Both the position numbers and the translations under genes were made by a program. The notes below the pieces were generated by a model. That model was not told the origin of the DNA, searched no databases, and saw nothing but the letters and a program-made list of their open reading frames with translations. Of a stretch of 64,000 bases of DNA, positions 5,006 to 53,686 are shown in pieces (the stretch's first letter is position 1; each line of letters begins with the position of its first letter). Source of the stretch: Tetrahymena thermophila SB210 (taxonomy: Eukaryota > Ciliophora > Oligohymenophorea > Hymenostomatida > Tetrahymenidae). The stretch is taken from assembly GCF_000189635.1 (NCBI RefSeq), contig NW_002476500.1, forward strand, positions 186,001 to 250,000, given 5' to 3'.

Positions 5006-6597
5006 TTTTATTAGATAAAAGTAATATTTTACAAATATATTTTTTTGAAATATTTATTTATTCAATTTTATTTTAAAACTAATTTAAAGAAGCAAATTAA
5101 ATCAATCAAACAAACAAACAAATAAATGAATAAAAAATAGCGTGAAACAAATTATTTAATAATCTGAATATTAATTTCTATATCAAAACTATTACAATTT
5201 TTTAATGAAATAAATTTGAAAATATCATAGAATTTTTTTTGTAATTATAAAAATCCATCCAATTTTCTAATAAATCATAATTAAATTAAAAAAGGATTTG
5301 CTAGACAAAGAAAATTAAAAAATAGAAGGAATAAATGTGATAATTTATTAATTAAAATATTTTTAACAATCAGAAAATTTATTTCTTTTCCATGTTTATA
5401 AATTTTTTTAAATATTTTAATTTTATTTTAAGTCATCCACATAAAAAATATCCAAAATATTTTAAATGCTATTTTCAAAATTAAAATTTTATTAAAATAA
5501 TCTGATTAAATTTGCAAGAGGAAGTAATTGTAAGAATTTAACATGTGAAATTATTTTTTTAAAATATCTTAAAACCTTAAAACTTAAATAAAAAATCAAC
5601 TTAATTCTAAAAAATAGTTTTAAAAATTAACATGTAAGGAAATATTTATTAAGTAAATATTTTTTATATTATTTGAATTCTGCTTTTCATTTTATTTTTA
5701 GCTCATAAGTCTCTATTTCTAATTTAATTATTTATTTTTAACATTAATTATCAAATTTTCTTAATTTTGATGTGAGCATTTATATTTTATTAAATTAAAA
5801 ATGCAAAAAATGTTAGTTGTATTCTTTAATTCATATTTAATATCATTTAAAATTTAGTTTGAAAATTATTTTTATTCTTCCACTTTAAAACTAGTAATAA
5901 AATATAAACTAATGAATGAATAATAAAATGAAAATATAATTTATGCTACAAAGAATTAAATTAATTTAATTCAATTTTTTGTTAATTTATACTCTTTCTT
6001 ACAATATTTGATTCAAAAGTAAAAGATTTGCCTTTCGTCTATTTTTAGTAATTTATTGAAGAATATTTAGTTTATGAATTTGTTTATAAATTTTAGAAAT
6101 TCAATTTAATTTGAGATTACTATTGATAGATGATTCAATGTAATTTAACTAAAGAACTTTATTTATTTCATTCATATTTTTTATATTAGAAATGAAAAAT
6201 ATATTTAACATTTTTTATAAAATAATAAATAAAATTTTTTTGATTGGACTTCAATTTTATTTTTAGTTATTGTTTTAAAATCATACAAAATAAAGTGGCT
6301 TTTCTTCTATTTTTAGCTATTAAAGTTGAGATTTTTAATTTATTTATTTAATTTAAATACCTTAATTAACTATGAATATTTAATTACATTGTAGGTTATT
6401 GTAATTTAATACAATTGTTTCAATCAGGTTTTTATTATGTTTTAAATTAAATATAAAAATATTTTTTTAATCAATTATTTTATTAGAAATAAATATTTAT
6501 AAATTATTAAGCAATTTTATAAAAAAATAAATAAATTAAAATTTTATTGATCTAAATTTTTTATATTAATTTTAAATTTTTAGTTTATTTGAAGTCA
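5006..6597. other. Intergenic region between the two channel genes
   Basis: I see no gene. It must contain the promoter of the downstream minus-strand channel gene (5005) and the 3' flank of the upstream one. A short CAAA-type simple repeat lies at about 5105-5130. Confidence 0.6.
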
Positions 6598-9534
6598 TCA
6601 AACAAAATAAGAGTGATTTTTCTTCAATTTTTAGTTTTTTAATGATGAATTTTCAGACTCTGAATTGATTTATGTTTAGCTACTTTAATCATCTTCAAAA
6701 TTGATTACTTATTCGAATGAATATTTATTCGCTACTTGCTTACATTTAAATATATTTATGCTTATTTAGTTATTATTTTATTCTTGATCTTATACTTGTA
6801 AGTTTTCTTCGTTTTTATAATTTAATGATTCTTGATTGGCTTTATTTTCTATTTTATTTGGCAAATTTTTTGTTTTTTCTTTGTTTTTATAAAATAACTC
6901 AACAAAGCCATTTTTAATTTCTTCGTATCTTTTTAATTGTTTTTATAAAATTTCTTTAGAAAGAGATTTTACTTCAGTATTTCTTTAATTTTTGATTTCA
7001 TCATCTTAGCAGCAACTGTAGCTCTCATCTTTCAAATTTATAACATGTAAATTTGAATCATCTTTTTAATCATTTTTATGATTTTAAAGTTCAACTAGAT
7101 TTCTAAAAATACTATGCTAAATATAACCTTCTTATTTTTAGAACTACACTTCATTATTTACTGAAATAAATTTAATATTTTCTTCAATCAATTAAATATC
7201 TTTCTTCGTTCCTTAAAATTCTGATTTATTTTTTGAATCAAAATTAATTAAATCTTCTTGCTAAAAGATATTTTAAACAACAGCTTCTTGCTCTTCAACA
7301 AACTTCTAATTAGCTTGTCTTCTGGTTGCTGGGTTTGTTCTATCATAATCTGTTGAGAAGCTGCCTTATACTTCTTAATATATTTTCGTATTTTCAGGTT
7401 TTTTAGATTTGACTTTAAATATCTTTTTATTTATGATATGAGCTGGTAAAAATAAATGAATACTTGCTATTGCTATTGCCACAAAAGAAACTGTTCTTGG
7501 ATTATTATCATCATTATCCTTTGATAAAATGATAAACACATAAGAAAGACAAGCATAAATAACTAAACCAATGTTCATTAGCAGCACCATTTTATATCCT
7601 AGAGAGGAACCCATGTTAAATGGAGCTGATCTTCTATATAATAAATTATATTTTGCTATGAAATATTAAATGATTAACCCTAAAATAGACCAAAAAATGC
7701 AAATTGGCAGTGGAGTTGCATAAAATAGAGTCATTAAAAGGGTTTTCATTATTTAGGAATATTCTGATTAAATGGCAAATGCAGGATCTTCATACAACTC
7801 AAGCAACTCTTATTGAGTTAAAATACTACTTTCTCCAGAGCTTTCTTATTTTTTTCTTAAATATTTCTTGATGATTGATTGAATATCAAAAATAAAGAAT
7901 AGCACAGGCAGAAATGAGTTGACCATAAAAATAGTGTTCTGAGTTGGGATCAAACCAGAAGCTCCATAAAGCATCTAGTAGTTGGTATTTTAATGCACTA
8001 TAAAAGACACTATCAAAGGGACTAAGGTAGCATTAGTGAATTAAGCTAAACTTAAAAAGAATGCAAATGAAAGATTGTAATTAGTTCTTGTTTAAAGCTT
8101 TTTAAAATCGGCAACAGTTTTAACTAGAATTACAAGAAATTAGTTGATGATAAATATCACTATTGATATAGTGAAAGAGAGCAACTAAATATTTCTTATT
8201 TCCTTCGCCCTCAACGTACTGTCAGAAATAGAATTAACATTATGGTTTTTAGCGTAGCTAGATTAGTAGTCTAGCAAGAAATAAATTGAAAGACCACAGC
8301 CAAAAACCATAAAAGAATCAACTATTAAACCAACAACCACTCTTATTGCTCTACTCGTTTTAGATACCCCTAAATTCTCCCAAAATATCTCTGTTGGATC
8401 AGGCGCAGCTGAAATTCTTAAATGTGTACCCATAAACTGCCTTACTGTTTAACTCTTTTTAAAGCAATTCCAAGAGCTCTTTGCCATCTCAAGTAAGTCT
8501 TTTTGCATTCTTTCAGTTTCAAATGTTACAAAAGCTACTCCAGTGAAAAGGTTCTTCATAAATTCGACTCCTTTACCTTCACTGAGTCTATTTTCTAACT
8601 TTAGAATTTCACTCTTCACTATCTCTATTTGCTTATCTATCTAAATCGCCTCTTAAGAGAAAATGTCGTATTTTCCATTTTTACTTATTTGCGATTTAAA
8701 TAATTTCTTTTTATCATTCACAAATAACTTCTACTTTCTTTGTAAATGCGTTAAATCCTTAATTTCATATCCTAAATTGACTTTTATAACCTTAAATTCA
8801 TATCCATTAAAATTGCTTGGATTCTAAAAGAAGCTTTTGAGCTCATCATCATAATCTAAATTTTCTTTCTATAAATCATTCTCGCATTAAATATCTTTGG
8901 GAATATTCTCAACCATTACAGTATAGTCAGATGCTAAAATAGCTGAGTCATCGCTGTCAGAATCTAACATTCTCTACTAATAAATTATTATCTAAATAAA
9001 AATAATTAGAACGCAAACAGCTGTTAAATTCAAGCACTCTTAAATGTAAATAGAATAATATAAATCAGTCCTGTTCCCTAGCGAAAGCTTAACTATCCAA
9101 TTTGTTTTGCATTGATTACCCTTAAGATTACACTAATTACCATAGTTTGCATTAGCTACCATATTGAAAATGCCACAAACACAAAACAAAATAAGCAAAA
9201 AGAATATGCAAAACTTCAAAAACTAAAAAAACATAGGAAACCCAGATCCTAAATAACTGAGTTTGGTAATGTCTGAATTTAAATTTAATATTTCTCTGTC
9301 TACACTTCTTCCACAACAATCACATTTCTCATTTATAAAGCCCTGTTATTTGTCTTTTTCAGTAAACTCTTTATCAGGTCCCACTTTAGTAGCTTTCAAG
9401 TGCTCTTTAGCTAAAAAAATATCGCCTGGAATCTTTTCAAAATTAACACTTTTACTGATAGCGTTGCCTCTATGCAATTATTTGGAATTATGCTCAGCTT
9501 AAGTCTTAATACTATCTTAACCTTCTTAGCTCAT
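6598..9534 (-). CDS. OSCA/TMEM63-like (DUF221) membrane channel, paralogue 2
   Basis: Single open frame of 978 aa in code 6. The ATG is at 9532-9534 (minus) and the TGA at 6598-6600. It is a full-length tandem paralogue of the minus-strand gene at 2285-5005, with the same order of features: CDCCGR, first span, SDYTVMV (about residue 203), charged cytosolic insert, APDPTEIFWENL (about residue 380), a multi-helix pore region, and a segment ending in KPENTKIY. The membrane core is well conserved between the two copies. The ~250-residue C-terminal tail is longer and diverged, rich in Gln, Asn, Glu and Lys, and has a coiled-coil look. By family knowledge it is a mechanosensitive/osmosensitive cation channel. 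The two genes are probably products of one duplication whose cytosolic tails then diversified, which suggests different partners or regulation. Confidence 0.8.
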
Positions 9535-9916
9535 TTTAAATCATAAAAATTTATGTTTTCTTTTTATTAAAATTATATTAAAGGTTATTTGCCTTAATCT
9601 TATTTTTTAAGCCTAAGATATCTTTTCTAAAAATATAAGTTCGTTTCTATATTTTAATTAATTTAAGGAGTCTATCTGATAATTTCCAATTTATTTATCT
9701 ATCTGCTATTGAAGATATAAATACTACTAAATTATTTATTCAATTTTTTTGTTTACTTGCGTACCCTCTCTATTTTTTCTAATTAAATAAGACTTTTTGA
9801 ATGATATCAGTAGATATATAGAAGGAGGGTTTAGATCTTACTCACTTTTAATTAAGGTATTCTAATGTAATATATTATTTGAATTTTCTAAACATTTTCT
9901 AAACAAATAAATTAAT

Positions 9917-27540: not shown

Positions 27541-27844
27541 TATATATATATCTTGCTCGTCTTCTATTATATTTTCTTAAACAGACCCATAAAAATTCGC
27601 TTCCAAATATTTTCCACTTTAAGTAGAAATTATTTTAAGTCTTTTATACCCGCTTAATTCATTCAGATCTGTAATAGAACTGTCATTCAACCCCAAAAAT
27701 CTAGTGCTGATATAACCTTCACCAATTAGGTTCAAATAAGTGGTAATGCGGGACAAAAGACTATCGACATTTGATACACTATTTATCAATGGATGTCTTA
27801 TTTTTTTTATCTATTTCGATTTGTATTCTATATTTATGAGACAT
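27541..27844 (-). pseudogene. Unrecognised minus-strand coding block, frameshifted or partial
   Basis: On the minus strand this stretch is clearly less AT-rich than its neighbours and reads as a protein-like frame containing LLSRITTYLNLIGEGYI, RFLGLNDSSITDLNELSG and KIISTQSGKYLEANFYG. That frame has no ATG of its own. An ATG at 27842-27844 (minus; MSHKYRIQIEID) lies one frame off and would join it if an A8 run near 27812 were one base shorter. It may be a gene with a homopolymer error, a gene with an undetected intron, or a young pseudogene. The frame stays open beyond 27541 but in background-like sequence. I recognise no family. Confidence 0.4.
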
Positions 27845-37604: not shown

Positions 37605-40334
37605 ATGATATAATAAATTTAATATTATACAAAATTAGAAGAAGTAATTATTTATTTTTTTATCAAAATAATTTAAATTTATTTTTACTAAAATAAAAAG
37701 TTTTTAAATTCTTCACTTTAATCTCATTAGGTTCTCCATATTAATCTGAGGTATATTTTATTTATAAATATTACTATTTATTAACATTTTCTAATAATTT
37801 AACTTTCAGTTTATATAAATTATTATTTTTCTAATTGAAATTATCTCTAATATTCATCCATTTTATTTCTTCAAATATTTTTCTAGTTATTTTAACTTAA
37901 TTTTCAATTTAAATTTTTTAAATTCATTATCAATTTTTTATTATTTGATATTTTTTATTCGTTTTTTTATGCTAAAACTTTTACTTGATAAAAACAGTTT
38001 AAATGTTTTTGGTTGTGATATTTTTAGTTATAAAAATGAATTTAAAACAATATAACTAACTAACTAACTCTTCTAATTTGTTTATTAGCTTTTTGTTGTA
38101 TTTATTTTTCTTTTTTATTGCATTTGTATATATTCTTATCTATCTTTCTTAATTTATTAACTCATTTTTTTATTTTCATTCATTTTCTTTTATTATTTAT
38201 TTATTAATTTCTTATTATTTCATATTTTTTCTAAATAACTAATTAATTGGTCAACTAGAAAAAAATGGTAATGGTCATATAAACCTTAAATTCTCACTCA
38301 GCCAGTCATATGTTATTAAAAAACCTCTTTGGTAAATGTATCCTAAAAAACTAAAAGAATTAGTTGATATCAAATATCTATATTATCCATCTATTCCAAA
38401 ATCCTGAAATAAATCTGAAATGGTCATATCAATTTTTTCTTGAAATTACTGTAAATGCTCTTTAATTAAGGTATACTTTAATTAAGGCATTTTTTTCTTA
38501 AATAAAAGACATAATTTTAGGATAAATTGACCATATAGGTTTTTAATAACATATGATTGAGTGAGAATTTAAGGTTTATATGACCATATCGTTCTTGTTG
38601 ACCAATTAATTATATATTTTTTCTTCAATATTTAAAAAGAAACAATGAAATTGGTGCATCAGGTGCATCAGACTTAGGCTCTGCTTTAGCTGATTGCACT
38701 AATCTCTCAAATTTGACACTTTTTCTTGAGTAAAATAATTTATTTGTTTTGGATTGTGATATTTTTTGTTATTAAAATAATTTAAGGCAATATAGCTCTT
38801 TTAAAAAGTTTATTAGCTTTTTATTTGATTTATTTTTCATTTTCTTTTTTATTGTGTTTGTGTTTTTTTTTTTCTTCTCTCTTTCTTAATTTAACTCATT
38901 TATTTTTAACATTTTCTTTATTTATTAATTCATTTCTTATTATTTCATATTTTTTCTTCATTTTTTTATTTCGAAATAACTAATACATTTTTTATTTTTC
39001 TTCAATATTTAAAAAGTGGAAATTAAATTGGTGCAACAGGTGCATCAACTTTAGGTTCTGCTTTAGAAAATTGCACTAATCTCTCAAATTTGACACTTGA
39101 TCTTAAGTAAAAAACAGTTTATTTGTTTTGGGTTGTGATATTTTTCGTTATAAAAATGAATATAAAACAAAATAACTCTTTTAATATATTTATTAGCTTT
39201 TTATTTGATTTCTTTTTCTTTTTTATTGAATTGGGTTATTTTTCTTCTATCTATCTATCTTTCTTAATTTAACTCATTTTTTATTTTAAACATTTGCTTC
39301 TGTTTTTTAAAAATTAATTTCTTATTATTTCATATTTTTTCTTGACTTTTTTATTTCGAAATAACTAATTAATTATATATTTTTTCTTCAATATTTAAAA
39401 AGATCCAATGAAATTGGTGATTAAGGTACATCAGACTTAGGCTATGCTTTAGCTAATTGCACTAATCTCTCACATTTGGCACTTTATCTTTAGTAAAAAT
39501 AGTTTATTTGTTTATGATTGTGATATTTTTCGTTATAAAATGAATTTAAAACAATATAACTAACTAACTCTTTTAATTTGCTTATTTGCTTTTTATTTGA
39601 TTTATTTTTCTTTTTTTTTATTGTACTTGTGTTTTTTTTCTTTTATCTTTGTAACTCATTTTTTTATTTTCAACATTTACTTTTATTATTCATTCATTAA
39701 TTCATTTCTTACTATTTCATACTTTTTCTTCGTTTTTTTATTTCTAAATAACTATTAAATTGCATATATTTTCTTCAATATTTAAAAAGTGGAAATTAAA
39801 TTGGTGCAACAGGTGCATCAGCTTTAGGTTCTGCTTTAGCAAATTGCACTAATCTCTCAAATTTGATACTTGATCTTAAGTAAAAAACAGTTTATTTGTT
39901 TTGGGTTGTGATATTTTTCGTTATAAAAATGAATGTAAAACAATATAACTAACTCTTTTAATTTGTTTATTAGTTTTTTATTTGTTTTCTTTTTCTTTTT
40001 TATTGTAGTTGTGTTTTTTCTTCTTCTATCTATCTTTCTTAATTTAACTCATTATTTATAATATTTACTTTTATTATTTAAAAATTAATTTCTTATTATT
40101 TCATTTTTTTCTTCATTTTTTTATTTAGAAATAACTAATTAATTATATTTTTTTCTTTAATATTTAAAAAGTTTCAACTAAATTGGTGATAGAAGAGAAT
40201 AGAAAAACTCGCACATATAAATGCACTCAGAATACATCTTAAAATTTATTTTTATTATATTTATATAAATAATTTTTATTTATTTTTAGGTATTTTCATA
40301 ATTATTAATTTTTAATAATTCAATCAATATCTGA
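37605..40334 (+). CDS. LRR (RNI-type) gene A, one repeat per exon
   Basis: Exons 37605-37750, 38640-38729, 39017-39106, 39403-39492, 39790-39879 and 40172-40334 join to 222 aa. Exon 1 encodes a helical leader (KLEEVIIYFFIKIIQ) ending SHQVLHINLR. Each of the four middle exons is 90 nt and encodes one LRR of the ribonuclease-inhibitor type, with pattern NxIGxxGxSxLGxALxxC and NLSNLTLxL. Every intron interrupts a codon after its second base, so repeats join seamlessly. Introns are about 290 nt and similar to one another. Intron 1 (37751-38639) holds a 355-bp inverted-repeat element and the relic of a further LRR exon end (about 37975-37997). The last exon starts a fifth LRR, then leaves the pattern (GDRREQKNSH). 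No other domain is seen, so it is probably a protein-interaction scaffold. Confidence 0.65.
38249..38603. mobile_element. 355-bp MITE-like element with terminal inverted repeats
   Basis: The left arm (38249-38325, starting GGTCAACTAG) and right arm (38535-38603, ending TTGTTGACC) are near-perfect inverted repeats of ~70 bp. Both contain the complementary words CATATAAACCTTAAATTCTCACTC and GAGTGAGAATTTAAGG, quoted in part. AATTAATT occurs on both sides (38241-38248 and 38604-38611), while the equivalent uninserted intron copies have it once. The duplication is palindromic, so TA, TTAA or 8-bp target duplication all fit (Tc1/mariner, piggyBac or hAT type). It has no ORF and is non-autonomous. 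Confidence 0.75.
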
Positions 40335-40713
40335 TTTTTGAATATTTAATATACACCCTGTTTCCTCTTTTTATCATTAATTCCAGAACAATTTGGTAAT
40401 TTAATAACCTTTTTCTATACATTTATTAATTAATTACTAGAATTTTTTTAAATATGACTAACTGCTCATCTCTAATTTGTAGAATATATATTTTTTTAAG
40501 TATATGTTTTAAATATAAATATTAAGATTAAATAATTAATGTTAAATTAATTTTTATGTGATATCTATCTCTTCATAAAACCAAATTTATAAATTAATAT
40601 TTGATAATTAATTAATTATTATATTTTATTTGTTCTTTTTATCCATTTATTATTAATTAATTAATTAAATTCCATAAATTGCTTGCTATTCAATATTTTT
40701 GAAAAAAAAATAA
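40335..40713. other. Spacer between LRR genes A and B
   Basis: No gene. AT-rich; the right half resembles the regions upstream of the other LRR genes. Confidence 0.6.
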
Positions 40714-43700
40714 ATGATATAATAGATTAAAAAATATAATAAATTAGAAGAAGTAATTATTAATTTTTTTATTAATATCCTTTAAATTTATATGAATAAA
40801 CAAAAAAAGTTTTTAAGCTCTTCACTTTTATCTCATGAGGTTCTCCATATTGAAATCAAGTATATTTTATTTTCAAATATTATTTTTATTATTAATAATT
40901 TATTTTTATATATTTAACTAACTTTCACTTTATTTAAACAATTAATTTTTGTTATAGAAATTATCATCATTATTCATTCATTAATTGATTTTTATTATAA
41001 CAAAAATTTTATAGCTATTTTAACTTAATTTTCAATTCAATTTTTAATTATTTATTTATTTATTATTCATTTTTTATCATTTGATATTTTTTCTTCATTT
41101 TTTGCTATTAAAACTTACACTTAATAAAAGCAGTAAGTTTATTAGTTTTGGATTGTAATATTTTTAATTATAAAAATTATATTTAAAACATAAAAGCTCT
41201 TTTAATTTATTTATTTGATTTATTTTCCTTTTTCTTTTTATTGTGATTTCTTTTTTTTTCATTTTTTGTTAATTCTATTAATTATAAATTTATCTCATTA
41301 TTCCATATTTTTTCTTCATTTTTTCCTTCTAGTTAACTAGAGTGAAAAGCCTATTTAATTTACAAAATGCGAAATGTAATATATCTTAATAACATTATTA
41401 ATAAAACTATAATAAATTAGCTTAAAACAGCTTTATTTATTTTTGAATTTTTAGATAGTTTTAAATTCACAAAATGTAAAATTTGAAATAATATATACAT
41501 ACCATACCGTATATTCTTATAACATATCATTTTTTTTTAAAAATAAATTTTGAAAAATTTTACATACTTTTTTTTAAATTAGTGATAAATGTACATCAGG
41601 CTTAGGTTCTGCTTTAGCAAATTGCATTAATCTCTCAAATTTGACACTTAATCTTCGGTAAAAACAGTTTATTTGTTTTGGATTGTGATATTTTTAATTA
41701 TTAAAGCTCTTTTATCTTTTTATTTATTTTGTGCTTGCAATTTTTTGTTCTTTCTTTGTTAATTTAACTCATAATTTTATTTCCAAATTTTGTTTTTATT
41801 ATTAATTAATTAATCTTATTATTTCATATTTTTCTTCATTTATTCCATCTAATTAACTATTTAATGATATATTTTTTCTTCAATACTTAAAAAGTTACAA
41901 TCAAATTGGCGATAAAGGTGCATCAGGCTTAGGTTCTGCTTTAGCAAATTGCATTAATCTCTCAAATTTAACACTTGATCTTTGGTAAAAACAGTTTATT
42001 TGTTCTGGATTGTGATATTTTGAATTATAAAAACTAATTAAAAATAATAAAGCTCTTTTTTCTTTTTCTTTTTATTGTGCTTGCAATTTTTTATTCTTTC
42101 TTTGTTAATTTAACTCATCATTTTATTTTCAACTTTCACTTTTATTATTATTTAATTAATCTTATTATTTCATATTTTTTCTTCATTTTTTCCTTCTAAC
42201 TCACTATTTAATGATATATTTTTTCTTCAATATTTAAAAAGTTCTAATAAAATTGGTTCAATAGGTGCATTAGACTTAGGTTCTGCTTTAGCAAAATGCA
42301 TTAATCTCTCAAATTTAACACTTGATCTTCGGTAAAAACAGTTTATTTGTTCTGGATTGTGATATTTTGAATTATAAAAACTAACTAAAAACAATAAAGC
42401 TCTTTTTTCTTTTTCTTTTTATTGTGCTTGCTATTTTTTGTTCTTTCTTTGTTAATTAAGCTCATCATTTATTTTAAACTTTTGCTTTTATTATTAATTA
42501 ATTAATCTTATTATTTCACTTAAAAAGTTACAATCTAATTGGTAAACTTGGTGCGTCAGACTTAGGTTCTGGTTTAGCAAATTGCATTAATCTCTCAAAT
42601 TTGACACTTCTGCTTTCGTAATAACAATTTATTTATTTTGGATTACGATATTTTTAATTATAAAAACTAATTATAAAAATAAAAATCTTTTTCTTTTTCT
42701 TTTGATCTTGCAATTTTTTGTTCTTTCTTTGTTTATTTAACTCATCATTTTATTTTTAACTTTTGCTTTTATTATTAATTATTTAACCTTATTATTTCCT
42801 ATTTTTCTACATTTTTTACTTCTAATTAACTATTTAATGATAAATTATTTTTCAAAACTTAAAAAGTTATAATCAAATTGGTTAACTTGGTGTGTCAAAC
42901 TTATGTTCTGCTTTAGCAAATTGCATTAATCTATCAAAATTGACTCTTGATCTTTGGTAAAAACAGTTTATTTGTTTTGGATTATGATATTTTTAATTAT
43001 AAAAACTAATTAAAAACTATAAAGCTCTTTTTTCTTTTTATTTTTATTGTGATTGCTTTTTTTTTGTTTTTTCTTTGTTAATTTAACTCAACATTTTATT
43101 TTCAACTTTTGTTTTTAATATTAATTAATTAATCTTATTATTTCATATTTTTTCTTCATTTTTTCCTTCTAATTAACTATTTAATTATTTATTTTTTCTT
43201 CAATATTTAAAAAGTGAAAATTAAATTGGTCCAAAGTGTGCATCAGGCTTAGGTCCTACTTTAGCAAATTGCATCAATCTCTCAAATTTGACACTTGATC
43301 TTAGGTAAAAACAGTTTGTTTGTTTGTTTTGGATTGTGATGATTTTAATTATAAAAACTAATAAAAAACAATAAAGCTCTTTTTTCTTTTTATTAATTTG
43401 TGTTTGTTTTTTATTTGTTCTTTCTTTGTTAATTTAGCTCATCATTTTATTTTCAACATTTAATTTTATTATTAATTAATCTTATTATTTTATATTTTAT
43501 CTTCATTTTTTCCTTCTAATTAACTATTTAATTATTTATTTTTTCTTCGATATTTAAAAAGATAAAATGGAATTGGCGATGAAGGTGCATCAGGCTTAGG
43601 TTTTGGTTTATCAAATTGGATTAATCTCTCAAATTTGATACTTAACCTTGAGTAAAAACAATTTATTTGTTTTGGATTTTGATAATTTTAATTTTAAAAA

Positions 43701-46385
43701 CTAATTAAATACAATAAAGATCTTTGTTCTTTTTCATTGTGCTTGCTTTTTTTTGTTTTTTCTTTGTTAATTTAGCTCGTCATTTTACTTTTAACTTTTG
43801 CTTTTATTACTAATTTATTAATCAATCTTATTATTTCATATTTTTTCTTCAATATTTAAATAGTAATAATGAAATTGGAGCAATAGGTGCATCAGGCTTA
43901 GGTTCTGCTTTAACAAAATGCATTAATCTATCAAATTTGACAATTGATCTTTGGTAAAAATAGTTTATTTGTTTTGGATTGTGATGATTTTAATTTTTAA
44001 AATTAATTTAAAACAATAAAGCTCTTTTTTCTTTTTTTTTTCATTGTGCTTACTTTTTTTTGTTCTTTCTTTGTTAATTTAGCTCATCATTTTACTTTCA
44101 AGTTTTACTTTTATTATCTTATTATTTCATATTTTTTCTTCATTTTTTCCTTCTAATTAACTATTTAATTACTTATTTTTTCTTCAATATTTAAAAAGGT
44201 CCAATAAAATTGGTCCAATGGGTGCATCAGGCCTAGGTTCTGCTTTAGCAAATTGCTTTAATCTTTCAAATTTAACACTTAACCTTAAGTAAAAACAATT
44301 TATTTGTTTTGGATTATGATATTTTTAATTATAAAACTAATTAAAAACAATAAAACTCTTTTTTCTTTTTATTAATACTATGATTGCTTTTTATTTGTTA
44401 TTTCTTTGTAAATTTAGCTCATGATTTTAATTTCAACTTTATTTTTTATTATTAATTAATCTTATTGTTTCATATTTTTTATTCATTTTTTCCTTCTTAT
44501 TAAATATTTAATCTTCAATATTTAAAAAAGTTTCAATAAAATTGGCAATGAAGGTACATCAGGCTTAGGTTCTGCTATAGCAAATTGTATTAATCTCTCA
44601 AATTTGACACTTTTGCTTTCGTAATAACAATTTATTTGTTTTGGATTGTGATATTTTTATTTATAAAAATTAATTAAAAACAATAAAGATCTTTTTTCTT
44701 TATCATTTCATTGTGCTTGCAATTTTATGTTCTTTCGTTGTTAATTTAACTCATTATTTAATTTTCAACTTTTGCTTTATTATTAATTAATCTTATTTTT
44801 TTCATATTTTTTCTTAATTTTTTCCTTCTAACTAGCTATTTAATTAAAAATTTTTTTTCAATATTTAAAAAGTAAAAATTAAATTGAACCAATGAGTGCA
44901 TCAGGCTTAGGTTCTGCTTTAACAAATTGCATTAATCTCTCAAATTTGACACTTGATCTTAGGTAAAAATAGTTTATTTGTTTTGGATTGTGATGATTTT
45001 AATTATAAAAATTAATTAAAAACAATAAAGCTCTTTTTTCTTTTTCTTTTGATTGTGCTTGCAATTTTTTGTTCTTTCTTTGTTAATTTAACTCATAATT
45101 TTATTTTCAACTTTTTTTTTTATTATTAATTAATTAATCTTATTATTTCATATTTTTCTTCATTTTTTCCTTCTAATTAACTATTTAATTAATATTTTTT
45201 CTTCAATATGTAAAAAGTGGAAATTAAATTGGTAAGAAAGGTGCATCAGGCTTAGGTTCTGCTTTAGCAAATTGTATTAAACTCTCAAATTTAACACTTA
45301 GCCTTAAGTAAAAATAATTTATTTGTTTTGGATTATGATATTTTTAATTATAAAAACTATTTAAAAACAATAAAGCTCTTTTTTCATTTTATTGTTATTG
45401 TTATTGCTTTTTTTTTGTTCTTTCTTTTTTAATTTAGCTCATCATTTTATTTTCAACTTTTGCTTTTATTATTAATTAATTAATCTTATTATTTCATATT
45501 TATTCTTTATTTTTTCCTTCTAATTAACTATTTAATTATTTATTTTTTCTTAAATATTAAAAAAGTTCCAATAAAATTGGTCCAATGGGTGCATCAGGCT
45601 TAGGTTCTGCTTTAGCAAATTGCTTTAATCTCTCAAATCTAACACTTAGCCTTAAGTAAAAACAATTTATATGTTTTGGATTATGATATTTTTAATTATA
45701 AAAACTAATAAAAAACAATAAAGCTCTTTTTCTTTTTATTTTTATTATGATTGCTTTTATTTTTTTCTTTCTTTGTTGATTTAGCTCATCATTTTATTTT
45801 CAACTTTCACTTTTATTATTAATTAATTAATCCTATTATTACATATTTTTTATTTATTTTTTCCTTGTAATTAACTATTTAATGATATATTTTTTCTTCA
45901 ATATTTAAAAAGTGAAAATTAAATTGGTGCAATTGGTGTATCAGGCTTAGGTTCTGCTTTAGCAAAGTGCATTAATCTCTCAAATTTGACGCTTAACCTT
46001 TAGTAAAAAAAGATTATATATTTTGGATTGTGATATTTTTATTTGTAAAAACTAACTTAAAACAATAAAGCTATTATTTCTTTTTCTTTTTATTGTGCTT
46101 GCTTGATTTTTTTTAATCTTTCTTTGTTAATTTAACTCACTCATAATTTTATTTTGAACTTTTGCTTTTATTATTGATTAAATAATCTTATTATTTCATA
46201 TTTTTTCTTCATTTTTTTTTTTAATTTACTATTTAAAAATATTTTTTCTTCAATATTTAAATAGAAAGAATTAAATTGGTAATGAAGGTGCATTAGGCTT
46301 AAATTCTGCTTTACGAAAGTGCATTAATCTCTAAAATTTAATACTTGATCTTAGGTAAAACAGTTTATTTATTTTTGGATTGTGA
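40714..46385 (+). CDS. LRR (RNI-type) gene B, 15 single-repeat exons
   Basis: Exon 1 is 40714-40859 (leader ending SHEVLHIEI). LRR exons are 41583-41657 (75 nt, truncated at its 5' side), 41895-41984, 42242-42331, 42528-42617, 42867-42956, 43215-43304, 43562-43651, 43864-43953, 44199-44288, 44531-44620, 44873-44962, 45218-45307, 45566-45655, 45913-46002, and a last one from 46265 that reads through to TGA 46383-46385. They join without a stop to 503 aa. All full exons are 90 nt in the same phase. The repeat is NxIGxxGASGLGSALANC then INLSNLTLxL. Introns (~200-260 nt) share long words with each other. If the last exon is instead spliced on, the true end lies further right. It is longest of the four related genes. 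Confidence 0.65.
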
Positions 46386-47332
46386 TATTTTTAGTTATAA
46401 AAACTAATTTAAAATAATAAATTTGAATTTATTTGATTTATTTTTTTTATCTTATTAACACCACTAAAGTTATTTTATTTATTAATTTAAGAAATAATTT
46501 TTAATTTAAAAGTTTATTTTATTTAATATTTATTTAAAATTTACATAAATTTATAATAAAAGTCGTAACTAAATTCTTGGAAAAAAAAAGTTCAAAGTAA
46601 AAAGCATGTGTCTTAAATCAAAAAGATTAGTTATCTTTTTTTTATAATTCCATTGATAAACAAGTGATGAAAAAAAGATTAATAAATATTAAATATTTGA
46701 TAACTGAATATTATTTTTTTTATTACATAACATTTTGAACATGTTTTTTTTAACCAAAAATATTGATAAATAGATAGATTATATTATTGTTTTTATTTAT
46801 TCATATTTTTTATTGTAAGTTAATAAATAGTTTATAATAAATTAAAAAGTTAAAAAATTAAATTTATTTAAATAAATTAATCCATCCATCTTAAGATCCT
46901 CTTAACTCTCTCTTAAAAAAGTTTTAGTTGTCTTTCAAACTCTCTTTAATAATAAGTTGGTTAAATTATTGCTTCATTGACAATATTAACATATTAATTT
47001 TTTGAGTGGGGTAAGGTTAAATTAGGAAGGGGTGCTCTTTAATTAATTAAGTTAAGAAATAATTAATTAGAGAGGGTTATTTTATTCTAGCGAGTTGCAT
47101 TTTCATTGATTATCCTTTTTATCCTATCTCTATTTCCTACTATATTCTTAAGTACACATTTTAAATAAAAATATTAATATTATTTAATAATGAATGCTAC
47201 ACTAACTTACTTTTATGTGATACTCAAAAAAACAAATTTATAAATTAATTTAATTTATTTGATCATTTGGTACACCTATAATTAATTATATATTTCCATA
47301 AATTATTACTCAATATTTTTGAAAAAAAATAA
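46386..47332. other. Spacer between LRR genes B and C
   Basis: No gene. The left part (about 46590-46700, word GTCTTAAATCAAAAAGATTA) recurs after gene C at about 50210-50290. The right part is the shared upstream module also seen at about 37350-37600. Confidence 0.65.
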
Positions 47333-49967
47333 ATGATATAATAGATTAAAGAATATTAAAAATTAGAAGAAGTAATTATTTATTTTTTATCAAAATAGTT
47401 TAAATTTATATTTACTAACATAAAAAGTTTTTAAATTCTTCACTTTAATCTCATTAGGTTCTCTATATTAATCTGAGGTATATTTAATTATTACAGTTTA
47501 TTAATATTTTCTTCAGTTTATATAGAATTTGATTTTTCTAATAGAAATTATCACTTATATCCATTCATTCATTATAGGTCTTTAAATATTTTTTAGTTAT
47601 TTTAACTTAATTTTTAATTTAAATTTTTTAAATTCATTATTAATTTTTATTATTTGATATTCTTATTCATTTTTTTTATTTAATAACTTTAACTTGATAA
47701 AAACAGTTAATTTTTTTTTTGATATTGATATTTTTAGTTATAAAAATGAATTTAAAAAATGTTACTATTCTAATTTGTTTATCAGCTTTTTATTGAATTT
47801 ATTTTTCTTTTTTATTATACTTGTGTTTTTTTTTGTTCTATCTTTCTTAATTTAACTCATTTTTTATTTTAAACATTTGTTTTTATTATTTATTTATTAA
47901 TTATTTCTTATTATTTCTTCATTTTTTTATTTCAAATAACTAATTAATTATATATTTTTTCTTTAATATTTAAAAAGTTTCAATTAAAATGGTGATTAAG
48001 GTATATCAGACTTTGGTGCTGCTTTAGCTAATTGCACTAATCTCTCAAATTTGACACTTTATCTTAGGTAATAACAGCATATTTATTTTGGATTGTGATA
48101 TTTTTAGTTATAAAAATGAATTTAAAACAATTAAATCTTCTAATTTATTTATTAGTTTTTTATTTGATTTCTTTTTTTTTATTGTACTTTTGTTTTTTCT
48201 TCTATCTTTCTTAATTTAACTCATTTTTTTTTCCACATTAGCTTTTATTATTTATTAACTCATTTCTTATTATTTCAAATTTATCTTCATATTTTTTTCT
48301 TTCGAAATAACTAATAAATTAAATATTTTTTCTTCAATATTTAAAAAGTGACAATTTAATTGTTGATTAAGGTGCATCAGACTTAGGTTTTGCTTTAGCT
48401 AATTGTAAAAATCTCTCAAATTTGGATCTTTATATTGGGTAATAACAGTTTATTTATTTTTGGTTGAGATATTTATTTTTTGTTATAAAAATAATTTAAG
48501 ATAATATAACTCTTCAAATTTGTTTATTAGCTTTTTATTTGATTTCTTTTTCTTTTTTATTATATTTGTGTTTTTTTCTTCTATTTTTCTTAATTTAGCT
48601 CATTTTTTATTTCCAACAATTGTTTTTGTTATTTATTAATTCATTTTTTATTATTTCATATTTTTTCTTCATTATTTTTTCGAAATAACTAATTAATTAT
48701 ATATTTTTTCTTCTATATTTAACAGTAACAATTAAATTTCTGATTAAGGAGCATCAGATTTAGGTTCTGCTTTAAAAAATTGCACTAATCTCTCAAATTT
48801 ATCACTTGATCTTTCGTAAAAACAGTTTATTTATTTTGGATTGTGATATTTTTCATAATAAAAATAATTTAAGACAATATAACTCCTTTAATTTGTTTAT
48901 TAGAACTTTATTTGATTTATATTTCTTTTTCTTTTTTATTTTACTCTTTTTTCTTCTATCTTTCTTAATTTAACTCATTTTTTTTACTTTCAGTAATTTC
49001 TTTTATTATTTGATAATTAATTTCTTATGATTACATATTATTTCTTCATTTTTTTTTTCTAAATAACTAATTAATAATATTTTTTATTAAACATTTAAAA
49101 AGTGGAAATTATATTAGTGCAACGGGAGCATCAGACTTAGGTTCTGCTTTAGCTAATTGCACTAATCTCTCAAATTTAACACTTGATATTAGGTAAAAAT
49201 AGTTTATTTGTTTTGGATTGTGATGTTTTTCATTATTGAATTTAAAACAATATAAAACTTCTAAATTGTTTATTAGCTTTTTATTTGATTTCTTATTCTT
49301 ATTTATTGTACTTACTTGTGTTTTTTCTATCTTTCTTTATCTTACTCATTAGTTTATTATCGACATTTGCTTTTATTATTTATTAACTCATTTTTTATTA
49401 TTTCATATTTTTTCTTCATTTTTATATTCGAAACAACTAATTAATTAAATATTTTTTTTTCGATATTTAAAAAGTTACAATTAAATTGGTGCGATAGGTG
49501 CATCAAATTTAGGTTCTGCTTTAGCTAATTGCACTAATCTCTCAAATTTGACACTTGGTCTTGAGTAAATTCAGTTTATTTGTTTTGGATTGTGATCTTT
49601 TTAGTTATAAAAATGAATTTAAAACAATATAGCTCATCTAATTTGTTTATTAACTTTTTATTGAATTTATTTTTTATAGAACTTTTGTTTTTTTTCTTAT
49701 ATCTTTCTTAATTTAACTAATTTTTCTATTTTCAACATTTGCTTTTATTATTTACTAATTCGTTTCTTATTATTTAATATTTTTTCTTTATTTTTTTTTT
49801 CGAAATAATTAATTAACAATATATTTTTTCTTCAATATTAAAAAAGTAGAAATTAAATTTGTGCAACAGGTGCATCAGACTTAGGTTCTAATTTAGCTAA
49901 ATGCACTAATCTCTCAAATTTAACACTTTATTTTGGGTAAAAACAGTTTTTTTCTTTTAGATTGTGA
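47333..49967 (+). pseudogene. LRR (RNI-type) gene C, exon 1 frameshifted
   Basis: The structure matches its three neighbours: exon 1 47333-47477, LRR exons 47978-48067, 48349-48438, 48726-48815, 49103-49192 and 49475-49564, and 49847 read to TGA 49965-49967. Exon 1 is 145 nt instead of the 146 nt of the other three genes. A T run near 47395 has six T where gene A has seven, so the leader runs out of frame before SHQVLYINLR. All six LRR exons are intact and 90 nt. Either this is a one-base assembly error in a homopolymer, or the gene is a recent pseudogene. If repaired it would encode ~238 aa. LRR exons use the TNLSNLTL version shared with gene A. Confidence 0.55.
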
Positions 49968-50712
49968 TATTTTTCTTATAAAATGAATTTAAAACAATAT
50001 AACTCTTCTAATTAATTTATTTATTAGCTTTTTATTTATTTCTTTTTCTTTTTTAACAAGTTAATATTTTTTATATATTAATTGTAAAAATAATTTTTAA
50101 TTAAAAAATATCATTATATTTAATTTTTTTTAGTATTTTATTTTAATTTAATATAATATTGAAGTGAAAACAAAATTAATGAATCATAATAATTGAAAGT
50201 AAAAGGCAAGTGTCTTAAATCAAAAAGATTAGTTATCTTTGAAATATACTTCGATTGGTGATAGAGAAGTGGTAAAAAGGATGAATAAATATTAAATACT
50301 TTCTTAATAGAAAATAATATGTTTTATTACATATATATTGTTATAAGATATTTAACCTAAAATATAGATATATAGATTTATTATTATTGTAAGATACCAT
50401 ACAAAAATTTAATGATTTGCTTGCCACTTTTTATGAAATAGTTTTTTTAGTTATTTATTAAATATCTAGCTTATTTATTTTGATATTTTATAATAGAATT
50501 ATAATTAATAATTTAATTTATAAAAATTTCAAAAATAAATAATTTTTTAAATCAAAATTTTTGGAAATTTAAATATCCTTTCAGATAAATATTTTGGGTT
50601 ACTTTTTAATAAAATCTGTATTATATTTTATTTGTTCTTTTTATCTATTTATAATTTATTAATTAATTAAATTTCATAAATTGCTATTCAATATTTTGGA
50701 AATAAAAAATAA
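49968..50712. other. Spacer between LRR genes C and D
   Basis: No gene. The left part shares the post-gene-B module, and the right part (from about 50590) shares the region upstream of gene B. Confidence 0.65.
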
Positions 50713-53686
50713 ATGAAATAATAGATTAAAGAATATAACGAATTAGAAGAAGTAATTATTAATTTTTTTATTAATATCATTTAAATTTATATAAATAAAT
50801 AAAAAAAGTTTTTAAGCTCTTCGCTTTTATCTCATTAGATTCTCCATATTAATCTTCGGTATATTTAATTAAAAAATATTATTTTTATTTTTATTATTTA
50901 TTATTAATAATTTATTTTTATATATTTAACTAACTTTCAATTTATTTAAATAAATAATTTTTATTATAGAAATTATCATCATTATTCATTCATTAATTTT
51001 TACTAAAACAAAAATTTTTTAGCTATTTTAACTTAATTTTCATTTAAATTTTTAATTATTTATTATACATTTTTATTATTTGATATTTTTCTTCATTTTT
51101 TGCTATTAAAACTTACACTTAATAAAAGCAGTAAGTTTATTAGTTTTTGATTGTAATATTTTTAAAAAGAAAAGTTAATTTAAAACATTAAAGCTCTTTT
51201 AATTTATTTTCCTTTTTCTTTTTATCATAATTTCTTTTTTTAATTCTTTGTTAATTTTATTAATTATTAATTAATCTTATTTTATCATATTTTTTCTTCA
51301 TTTTTTCCTTCTAATTAACTTGAGTGAAATGCCTATTTAATTAATAAAAGGCGAAATATAATATATCTTAATAACATACTAAATAAAGCTAAATTAGCAA
51401 AATTTTATTTTTTAGTTTTTAGAAAGCTTTAAATTCACAAAATGTAAAATTTTAAATAATTTTTACAGCACATTCTAAAAACATATCATTTTTTTTAAAA
51501 AAAATAATTTTTGAATTAAACTTCTTGTAAAAACAGTTTATTTGTTTTGGATTGTGATATTTTGAATTATAAAAACTAATTTAAAACAATAAAGCTCTCT
51601 TTTCTTTTTCTTTTTATTGCGCTTGCTTTTTTTTTGTTCTTTATTTGTTAATTTAACTCATCATTTTCTTATCAATTTTTGCTTTTATTATCAATTAATT
51701 GATCTTATTATTTCATATTTTTTCTTCATTTTTTCCTTCTAATTAACTATTTAATGATGTATTCTTTCTTCAATATTTAAAAAGTTAAAATTAAATTGGT
51801 GCAAAGGGTGCATCAGGCTTAGGTTCTGGTTTAGCAAATTGCATTAATCTCTCAAATTTGTCACTTTATCTTGAGTAAAAACAGTTTATTTGTTTTGGAT
51901 TGTGATATTTTGAATTATAAAAACTAATTAAAAACAATAAAGCTCTCTTTTCTTTTTCTTTTTATTGTGCTTGCTTTTTTTTTGTACTTTCTTTGTTAAT
52001 TTAACTCATCATTTTATTATTAAGTATTACTTTTATTATCAATTAATTAATCTTATTATTTCATATTCTTTCTTCATTTTTTCCTTCTAATTAACAATGA
52101 TATATTTTTTCTTCAATATTTAAAAGTGGCAATATAATTGGTGCAAAGGGTGCATCAGACTTAGGTTCTGGTTTAGCAAATTGCATTAATCTCTCAAATT
52201 TGTCACTTTACCTTTAGTAAAAACAGTTTATTTGTTTTGGATTGTGATACTTTGAATTATAAAAACTAATTTAAAACAAAAAAGTTCCCTCTTGTTTTTC
52301 TTTTTATTGTGCTTGCTTTTTTTTTGTTCTTTCTTTGTTAATTTAACTCACCATTTTATTTTTAACTTTTACTTTTATTATCAATTAATTGATCTTATTA
52401 TTACATATTCTTTCTTCATTTTTTCCTTCTAATTAACTATTTAATGATATATTTTTTCTTCAATATTTAAAAAGTTAAAATTAAATTGGTGCAAAGGGTG
52501 CATCAGGCTTAGGTTCTGGTTTAGCAAATTGCATTAATCTCTCAAATTTGACACTTCAGCTTGGGTAAAAACAGTTTATTTGTTTTGGATTGTGATATTT
52601 TGAATTATAAAATCTAATTAAAAAAAAATAAAGCTCTCTTTTCTTTTTCTTTTTATTGTGCTTGCTTTTTTTTTGTTCTTTCTTTGTTAATTTAACTCAT
52701 CATTTTATTTTTAACTTTTTTTTTTATTATCAATTAATTGATCTTAATATTTCATATTCTTTCTTCATTTTTTCCTTCTAATTAACTATTTAATGATGTA
52801 TTCTTTCTTCAATATTTAAAAAGTTACAATGAAATTGGTGATGAAGGTGCATCAGGCTTAGGTTCTGGTTTAGCAAATTGCATTAATCTCTCAAAAATGA
52901 CACTTAACCTTAAGTAAAAACAGTTTACTTGTTTTGAATTGTGATATTTTGAATTATAAAAACTAATTTAAATTAATAAAGCTCTCTTTTCTTTTTCTTT
53001 TTATTGTTTTGCTTTTTTTTTTTGTTCTTTCTTTGTTAATTTAACTCATCATTTTATTTTTAACTTGCGCTTTTATTATCAATTAATTGATCTTATTATT
53101 TCATATTCTTTCTTCATTTTTTCCTTCTAATTAACTATTTAATGATATATTTTTTCTTCAATATTTAAAAAGTTAAAATTAAATTGGTGCAAATGGTGCA
53201 TCAGGCTTAGGTTCTGGTTTAGCAAATTGCATTAATCTCTCAAATTTGACACTTGACCTTGGGTAAAAACAGTTTATTTGTTTTGGATTGTGATATTTTG
53301 AATTATAAAAACTAATTTAAAACAATAAAGCTCTCTTTTCTTTTTTCAATTAATTGATAATATTATTTCATATTCTTTCTTCATTTTTTCCTTATAATTA
53401 ACTATTTAATGATATATTTTTTCTTCAATATTTAAAAAGGTACAATGAAATTGGTGATGGAATGGAATGGAATACTCGCACATAAATATGCACTCAGAAT
53501 ACATCTTAATTAAATTATATTATAGAAAAACAATTTTATATATTTTATTTTATTTATTTTTTTTTTGTGTTAATCTGTAGGTCTAGATAAAGGTTTTCAA
53601 AGCAATTTGTTTATTTATTTAATTCAAATATTATATATAGTATCAACGTCACTCCATGTAGTTGCCGGAGCTTCCGTAAAGATTGA
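50713..53686 (+). CDS. LRR (RNI-type) gene D
   Basis: Exons 50713-50858, 51785-51874, 52127-52216, 52475-52564, 52824-52913, 53173-53262 and 53440-53686 join in frame to 280 aa. Exon 1 encodes KLEEVII-type leader (here ELEEVIINFFINIIQ) ending SHQILHINLR. The five LRR exons are the most alike of any in the array (NQIGAKGASGLGSGLANC recurs), suggesting the most recent amplification. A degenerate exon relic sits at about 51515-51533 inside intron 1. The terminal exon leaves the LRR pattern (GDGMEWNTRT) and shares ACTCGCACATA and GCACTCAGAATACATCTTA with the end of gene A, so these two have a common 3' module. The C-terminal ~80 residues may be partly untranslated. Confidence 0.65.

Follow-up and report, generated by a model that had tools for sequence, protein, structure and literature searches.

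Leucine-rich-repeat exon arrays of Tetrahymena thermophila and a LINE-like element that appears to enter them at a fixed exon base

Four arrays of 90-nt exons

The window analysed here, meaning the whole 64,000-nt stretch of DNA, is by its sequence macronuclear DNA of Tetrahymena thermophila. A telomerase RNA gene lies at 27644–27808 on the plus strand (RF00025, 161.9 bits in Rfam), about 10 kb upstream of a cluster of leucine-rich-repeat (LRR) genes; window positions 27646–27804 equal the T. thermophila telomerase RNA in 159 of 159 nucleotides. Two neighbouring genes with PHM7_cyt domains occupy the minus strand at 2288–5101 and 6601–9540, and presumably belong to the OSCA/TMEM63-like channel family. 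The LRR cluster comprises the following features:

37605–37750, plus strand: leader exon of gene 1, 146 nt, ending in phase 2
38640–39879, plus strand: array of gene 1, four 90-nt exons starting at 38640, 39017, 39403 and 39790, with introns of 287–297 nt
40172–40190, plus strand: opening 19 nt of gene 1's fifth exon, which is broken at that point
40191–40418 (end approximate), minus strand: LINE-like remnant in gene 1, 3' end toward the exon, tail core at 40208–40241
40714–40859, plus strand: leader exon of gene 2, 146 nt, ending in phase 2
41583–41657, plus strand: damaged first repeat of gene 2, a 75-nt in-frame exon
41895–46354, plus strand: array of gene 2, fourteen 90-nt exons starting at 41895, 42242, 42528, 42867, 43215, 43562, 43864, 44199, 44531, 44873, 45218, 45566, 45913 and 46265, with introns of 196–262 nt
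47333–47477, plus strand: leader of gene 3, 145 nt, frameshifted
47978–49936, plus strand: array of gene 3, six 90-nt exons starting at 47978, 48349, 48726, 49103, 49475 and 49847, with introns of 281–287 nt
50713–50858, plus strand: leader exon of gene 4, 146 nt, ending in phase 2
51785–53262, plus strand: array of gene 4, five 90-nt exons starting at 51785, 52127, 52475, 52824 and 53173, with introns of 252–259 nt
53440–53458, plus strand: opening 19 nt of gene 4's sixth exon, which is broken at that point
53459–53678 (end approximate), minus strand: LINE-like remnant in gene 4, 3' end toward the exon, tail core at 53475–53508

Both strands of the whole window were scanned with a 60-base exon core at a reporting threshold of 38/60. 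The scan returned 30 plus-strand matches (51–59/60), all at 38.6–53.3 kb, and no match of at least 38/60 on either strand outside that interval. The best chance score in ten first-order Markov sequences built from the window was 31–33/60, and the best on the minus strand was 35/60. In 29 of the 30 matches exactly 90 nt separate AG and GT, in phase 2 and without a TGA (ciliate code), which confirms the original prediction of 29 exons of exactly 90 nt, all in one phase, in four head-to-tail genes. That each exon encodes one LRR, as was also predicted, is supported by a Pfam LRR_6 match. The runs of 90-nt exons number 4, 14, 6 and 5 in genes 1 to 4, or 4, 15, 6 and 5 when the damaged exon is counted, and units inside the genes are spaced 286–387 bp apart. 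Introns of genes 2 and 4 measure 196–262 nt, mostly 242–262, and those of genes 1 and 3 measure 281–297 nt. Genome-wide counts were taken over an assembly of 101 Mb in 445 contigs, in which a 35-base exon core recurs, with up to 3 mismatches, at 3,434 places, against none for the control.

The layout of a leader exon followed by an array, proposed for each gene, stands for the most part: four leaders are present, but that of gene 3 is frameshifted and the first repeat of gene 2 is damaged. The gene 3 leader is one T short in a run of T, reads into a TGA and does not join the shared phase of the repeats; a homopolymer assembly error could be an alternative cause. The first repeat of gene 2 lacks an acceptor at the 90-nt position, and an internal in-frame AG yields the 75-nt exon. 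This AG lies inside the target sequence of the element described below, with ATTAG in place of the ATTGG of most exons. Reading through beyond the final donor of gene 2 meets a TGA at 46383–46385. In gene 1 and in gene 4 the array ends within an exon, at its nucleotide 19, where short repeats and a conserved core take over. Position 53686, formerly taken as the end of the locus, is a TGA met by reading on into the inserted element. The earlier reading overlooked the insertions that end genes 1 and 4, the frameshift of gene 3, the damaged exon of gene 2 and the diversity at the level of codons. Its further claim, that introns resemble each other gene by gene, holds in part, but mean identity between genes 2 and 4 (0.881) equals or exceeds that within gene 2 itself (0.878).

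A mosaic formed by recombination between genes was also considered, genes 1 and 3 being alike in leader and exons, genes 2 and 4 being alike, and genes 1 and 4 sharing their 3' end. It was rejected because the 3' end common to genes 1 and 4 comes from two distinct copies of the element, which belong to different subfamilies.

The 90-nt exon architecture of these genes is that of an already published gene family, and so is not new. Xiong et al. 2019 (PMC6564038) describe, in the main text, thousands of young Tetrahymena LRR genes with 90-bp exons and phase-2 introns, and propose exon shuffling through unequal crossing-over; the same text argues for exon plus intron as the multiplying unit, a claim of the original prediction that the window also supports. 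As described there, the group III genes share with the window their tandem exons of exactly 90 bp, phase-2 introns, exon-plus-intron unit and variable repeat number. Their intron length in T. thermophila, about 257 bp, resembles that of genes 2 and 4, whereas the introns of 281–297 bp in genes 1 and 3 differ from the group III description. What appears to lie beyond the published text is a single-base insertion rule in the exon and the diversification of exposed residues.

A LINE-like element at exon base 19

The core of the tail, which is about 51 nt long, occurs at 131 places in the genome with at most 3 mismatches, and its reversed control at none. Position was counted in 51 unique tails from 50 loci, picked from these 131 places with a tail-only pattern; 50 of the 51 match the pattern exactly, so older copies are under-represented. 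An acceptor AG stands exactly at the start of a 90-nt exon in 50 of the 51, the exon being broken after its base 19. The exon motif (bases 5–19) reaches at least 11/14 on the same strand in 50 of the 51 tails and on the opposite strand in 1, a score attained at 302 of 5,000 random positions in those 50 loci. The exceptions are L074, which has no acceptor, and L055, with 9/14 for the motif. The short repeats at the joint differ between copies (TAGAA in 54 of 69 tails; TGGAA, TTGAA, GAT, TGGAAA and others in the rest), and an LRR match follows within 1.5 kb downstream of 52 of the 69, with none in that span for 17. The element appears to have entered many 90-nt exons across the genome directly after base 19 and in one orientation, with the single target position and single orientation that characterize site-specific non-LTR elements.

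The other end of the insertions is visible where an exon resumes. Among 353 exon cores scanned, 32 have no recognisable intron end upstream; 21 of them were chosen by eye as resuming after foreign sequence with bases 9–15 recognisable, so that their agreement at those bases proves nothing, and 11 do not show the 5' junction. The consensus is matched at bases 4, 5 and 6 in fractions of 0.00, 0.05 and 0.24 of the 21 junction exons, versus 0.37, 0.97 and 0.95 of 298 intact exons. Fourteen of the 21 could be paired with an upstream tail, six have no tail within 900 bases, and L026 yielded no upstream acceptor. In these 14 two-ended insertions, bases 8–19 are identical upstream and downstream in nine and bases 4–6 in none; five pairs differ somewhere within bases 8–19. 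By comparison, bases 8–19 are identical in 73 of 798 same-locus pairs of intact exons, where bases 5, 6 and 7 agree in 94–97%. Locus-specific variants are common to both copies, for example in L013, L029 and L058. By these comparisons, the repetition of exon bases 8–19, about 12 bp, is a target-site duplication. R2-type elements may have no target-site duplication, so its presence is no fixed criterion.

Between the tail and the resumed exon, 94–441 nt of element remain; such variable lengths are those of LINE copies truncated at the 5' end, or of copies from which the macronucleus has lost a part. A shared 3' end, a variable 5' extent and near-identical copies in different hosts, as in non-LTR elements, are all found. 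Some copies carry a second conserved end, present at 43 genome places and joining the exon at about base 8 in L057, L069, L076 and L085, which is probably the 5' end of the element. The segment 41338–41565, also tried as the 5' end, was rejected: the genome contains at least 40 matches to it, and in sampled loci it runs on into other sequence, as a piece of the leader region of other LRR genes. At about position 752 of L083 (minus strand), an LRR exon passes into another, partial exon at the bases that open the element's target, which may mark an insertion site that has been repaired.

The history of the copies was examined by comparing elements with their hosts. With a filter of at least 97% identity within the element, 22 pairs were found among 28 insertions, their elements 97.6–100% identical over 101–261 nt; the host flanks are 71–91% identical by best local match in 19 of these pairs and unmatched in 3. 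Beyond the core, the gene 1 copy is 100% identical over 177 nt to the copy in L047, which sits on another contig with an unmatched flank, and 99.4% identical over 176 nt to that in L063. Copies in L004, L005 and L006 match the gene 4 copy at 97.6% identity over 170 nt. For 68 tails, a set that includes some found with an exon-containing query and used for relatedness only, not for the position count, the sequence closest to the flank belongs to an intact unit in its own locus in 29, to an intact unit elsewhere in 29 and to the flank of another tail in 10; outside the own locus this split is about the share expected from the numbers of intact units (298) and tails. Upstream flanks of the 51 counted tails form no cluster at 95% identity. 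Because near-identical copies lie in different host units, the insertions are independent.

The published description of one element fits these observations. By the account in PMC6564038, REP has a conserved 54-bp 3' tail with 169 macronuclear copies beside LRR repeats; 76% of Tt.REPs adjoin such repeats, and remnants are embedded in introns of gene models. LRR introns are named there as favoured REP targets, REP and LRR genes both lying in pericentromeric and subtelomeric regions. As described, REP is germline-limited and encodes a zinc finger in ORF1 and a reverse transcriptase and endonuclease in ORF2. The element here shares with Tt.REP (PMC6564038) a conserved 3' tail of about 50 bp and many macronuclear copies beside LRR units, a likeness to the published description. 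No element body was found in the assembly, whose sole PF00078 match, on contig C134, has neither tail nor LRR exon within 3.7 kb. The LINE-like element is probably REP or REP-like, an identification that draws on the published description, the copy number (131) and the position rather than on REP sequence. The main text of PMC6564038, in naming introns as the favoured target, appears to contain neither the fixed exon insertion site nor the target duplication nor the hypervariable strand codons. The fixed exon site was not found in print in the openly licensed literature, and the 2004 REP paper may hold part of it.

Two other histories could place tails beside LRR units. The tail might be an old terminal LRR exon that arose once and spread by gene duplication, its constant position being inherited; this agrees with a position that is nearly constant everywhere and with the fact that some tails, those of genes 1 and 4 among them, lie where a gene seems to end. 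Yet in 22 of 22 copy pairs the elements are far closer to each other than their host units are, the flanks of 58 of 68 tails are nearest to intact units, and the joint repeats differ. The target duplication (9/14 vs 73/798) and the LRR matches downstream of 52 of 69 tails also speak against a terminal exon. On sequence grounds inheritance of a single old exon is rejected for the tested pairs, and we give the idea as a whole scarcely any credence. Alternatively, REP might prefer LRR introns, or merely accumulate in the same pericentromeric and subtelomeric regions, as the 76% adjacency and the remnants in gene-model introns reported in PMC6564038 would allow. Either preference would scatter breakpoints across the unit of about 347 bp, whereas 50 of 51 tails have an acceptor at the 90-nt exon start and an exon broken after base 19; we regard this as highly improbable. 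Under repeated insertion into the exon, the intron placement of REP remnants described in PMC6564038 may arise from gene models that count the wounded exon as intron.

Codon diversification and the role of the arrays

The proteins match Pfam LRR_6 above its cut-off of 23.4 (66.5 and 46.1 bits for the models of genes 2 and 4), as proteins with RNI-type LRRs do. Six chains of solved structures found by sequence are LRR proteins that include dynein regulatory complex subunit 5 and radial spoke protein 15, one of the six bearing the name of a kinase domain protein.

Within all four genes, exons resemble each other less than introns do, with mean exon/intron identities of 0.819/0.860, 0.807/0.878, 0.792/0.832 and 0.887/0.934 in genes 1, 2, 3 and 4 (damaged exon left out). 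Between the members of two diverged gene pairs they are not less alike (0.814/0.810 for gene 1 vs 4; 0.796/0.787 for gene 3 vs 4). By a simple Nei–Gojobori count, whose values recombination can distort, pN/pS is 3.17 at codons 1, 28 and the split codon versus 0.82 elsewhere (297 exons, 179 split codons), these three sites having been named after the variation was seen (ranks 1, 2 and 4 of 30; 1, 2 and 5 in the window alone). The 29 window exons give 3.11 versus 0.85. Taken singly, codon 1 has 3.65, codon 28 has 2.65 and the split codon 3.37 (179 cases); codons 7 and 6 reach 2.85 and 2.16, and the Leu, Ile and Asn scaffold codons lie at 0.09–0.47. In the 297 exons pS is 0.188. Nucleotide diversity is 0.22–0.25 at intron ends versus 0.68 at exon bases 2–4, so the regional mutation rate is no easy explanation of the exon excess. 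By the LxLxxN rule, we take codons 28, split and 1 to be exposed β-strand residues. Besides repeat number, diversity thus sits in particular codons, those of exposed strand residues beside the intron. The location of the excess, mainly in exposed β-strand residues, suggests a diversified recognition surface, and the codon pattern makes recognition of varied ligands, through binding, a likely function of this large family. Varied-ligand recognition was proposed on other grounds in PMC6564038.

Whether the arrays serve a protein at all, and whether they serve to vary its repeat number, are related questions. Decaying or neutral repeats would agree with the frameshifted leader of gene 3, the broken-off genes 1 and 4 and an overall dN/dS of 1.01 for the 29 window exons, and individual genes may indeed be drifting. 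Yet in-frame TGA is absent from 297 of 298 intact exons in the sampled loci, the scaffold codons are constrained and the strongest excess falls at exposed positions; many family members are expressed, and many show purifying selection at gene level, according to PMC6564038. We therefore consider arrays without protein function unlikely. Proteins of varied repeat number, made by alternative splicing, unequal recombination or both, were the role proposed by the original prediction. All 29 exons could be skipped or duplicated without a change of frame, the four genes differ in repeat number, recombination is argued for in PMC6564038, and modular exons with alternative splicing of LRRs are reported for human NLRP3 (PMC6642158). 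On the other side, the main text of PMC6564038 nowhere mentions alternative splicing, and a uniform phase also follows from copying one unit, so that we hold the odds on this role to be even.

Proposed mechanism, related systems and side observations

We assign a probability of about 0.85 to the reading that these are known young LRR genes with diversified exposed residues, subject to repeated LINE-like insertion after exon base 19. Each exon supplies one RNI-type repeat, and the uniform phase-2 introns would let one unit drop without loss of frame. Scaffold residues are constrained, and in the codon pattern the exposed β-strand residues change more quickly than neutrality predicts, like those of a recognition surface. 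Genes 1 and 4 are cut off by insertion of the LINE-like element, most likely REP, which appears to have entered one way after base 19 and to have duplicated about 12 bp (exon bases 8–19). The LRR exon would serve the element as rDNA serves R2, as a target in thousands of copies. If the donor before a wounded unit were spliced to the acceptor after it, that unit would be lost in frame, a skipping that is possible because every intron between 90-nt exons is phase 2 and that would explain REP remnants in the long introns of gene models.

Element and host might even form a co-evolved pair, in which an endonuclease is dedicated to base 19, hits are skipped harmlessly, and nicks and copies drive the unequal exchange that reshuffles recognition exons; this we offer tentatively and think rather doubtful. 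If true, a selfish element would be the engine of a receptor-diversification system. The insertion rule itself would explain the frequent co-occurrence of REP and LRR genes, would make exon base 19 a direct assay for new insertions, and makes the driver of LRR gene growth in Tetrahymena testable.

Site-specific LINEs with RNA-gene targets are well known, among them R2 in 28S rDNA, Utopia in U2 snRNA genes and SLACS in spliced-leader genes. Like R2 and other site-specific LINEs, the element here uses one target base in a multicopy gene, one orientation and a 3' end at a fixed joint; unlike those with RNA-gene targets, it targets a protein-coding repeat exon. The nearest coding precedent is ingi/RIME at the RHS hot spot of trypanosomes, described in PMC7563717 as LINE insertion inside the coding sequence of a multigene family with many members disrupted, whereas the target here is one exon repeated many times within each gene, so that the frame could survive through skipping. 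If a LINE does have a repeated protein-coding exon as its standing target, this would be a new kind of target. In human NLRs we know of no dedicated retroelement and of no such recent amplification. Like the window genes, human NLRs have modular, frame-preserving LRR exons, and NLRP3 is alternatively spliced, as reported in PMC6642158.

Several side observations concern the assembly and the introns. The single PF00078 match (L043, G000:C134:182753–183433, minus strand) lies in an open frame that spans at least 942 aa and encodes a LINE- and R2-like reverse transcriptase; by its sequence it is a retrotransposon-type reverse transcriptase retained in the somatic genome, and one such match in the assembly fits a macronuclear genome cleared of transposons. 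An in-frame TGA falls within the first 31 nt of 24 of the 30 window introns, at about nucleotide 29 past the donor; of 296 introns in sampled loci, 202 share the codon position of this TGA and 70 lack one in their first 48 nt. Intron retention would close the protein with a short common peptide, xQKQFICFGL. As a built-in stop this was rejected, those columns being no more conserved than their neighbours, with no selection seen. The four leader introns (37751–38639, 40860–41582, 47478–47977 and 50859–51784) each hold an apparent fossil exon end, ACTTGATAAAAACAG-like, with the donor GT changed to AT, which suggests that a first repeat was lost in a common ancestor. The leader intron of gene 1 also carries, at 38233–38619, a long imperfect inverted repeat with nested arms of 26–40 nt, MITE- or foldback-like; among the 42 genome matches listed for it, most span only the internal ~57 bp.
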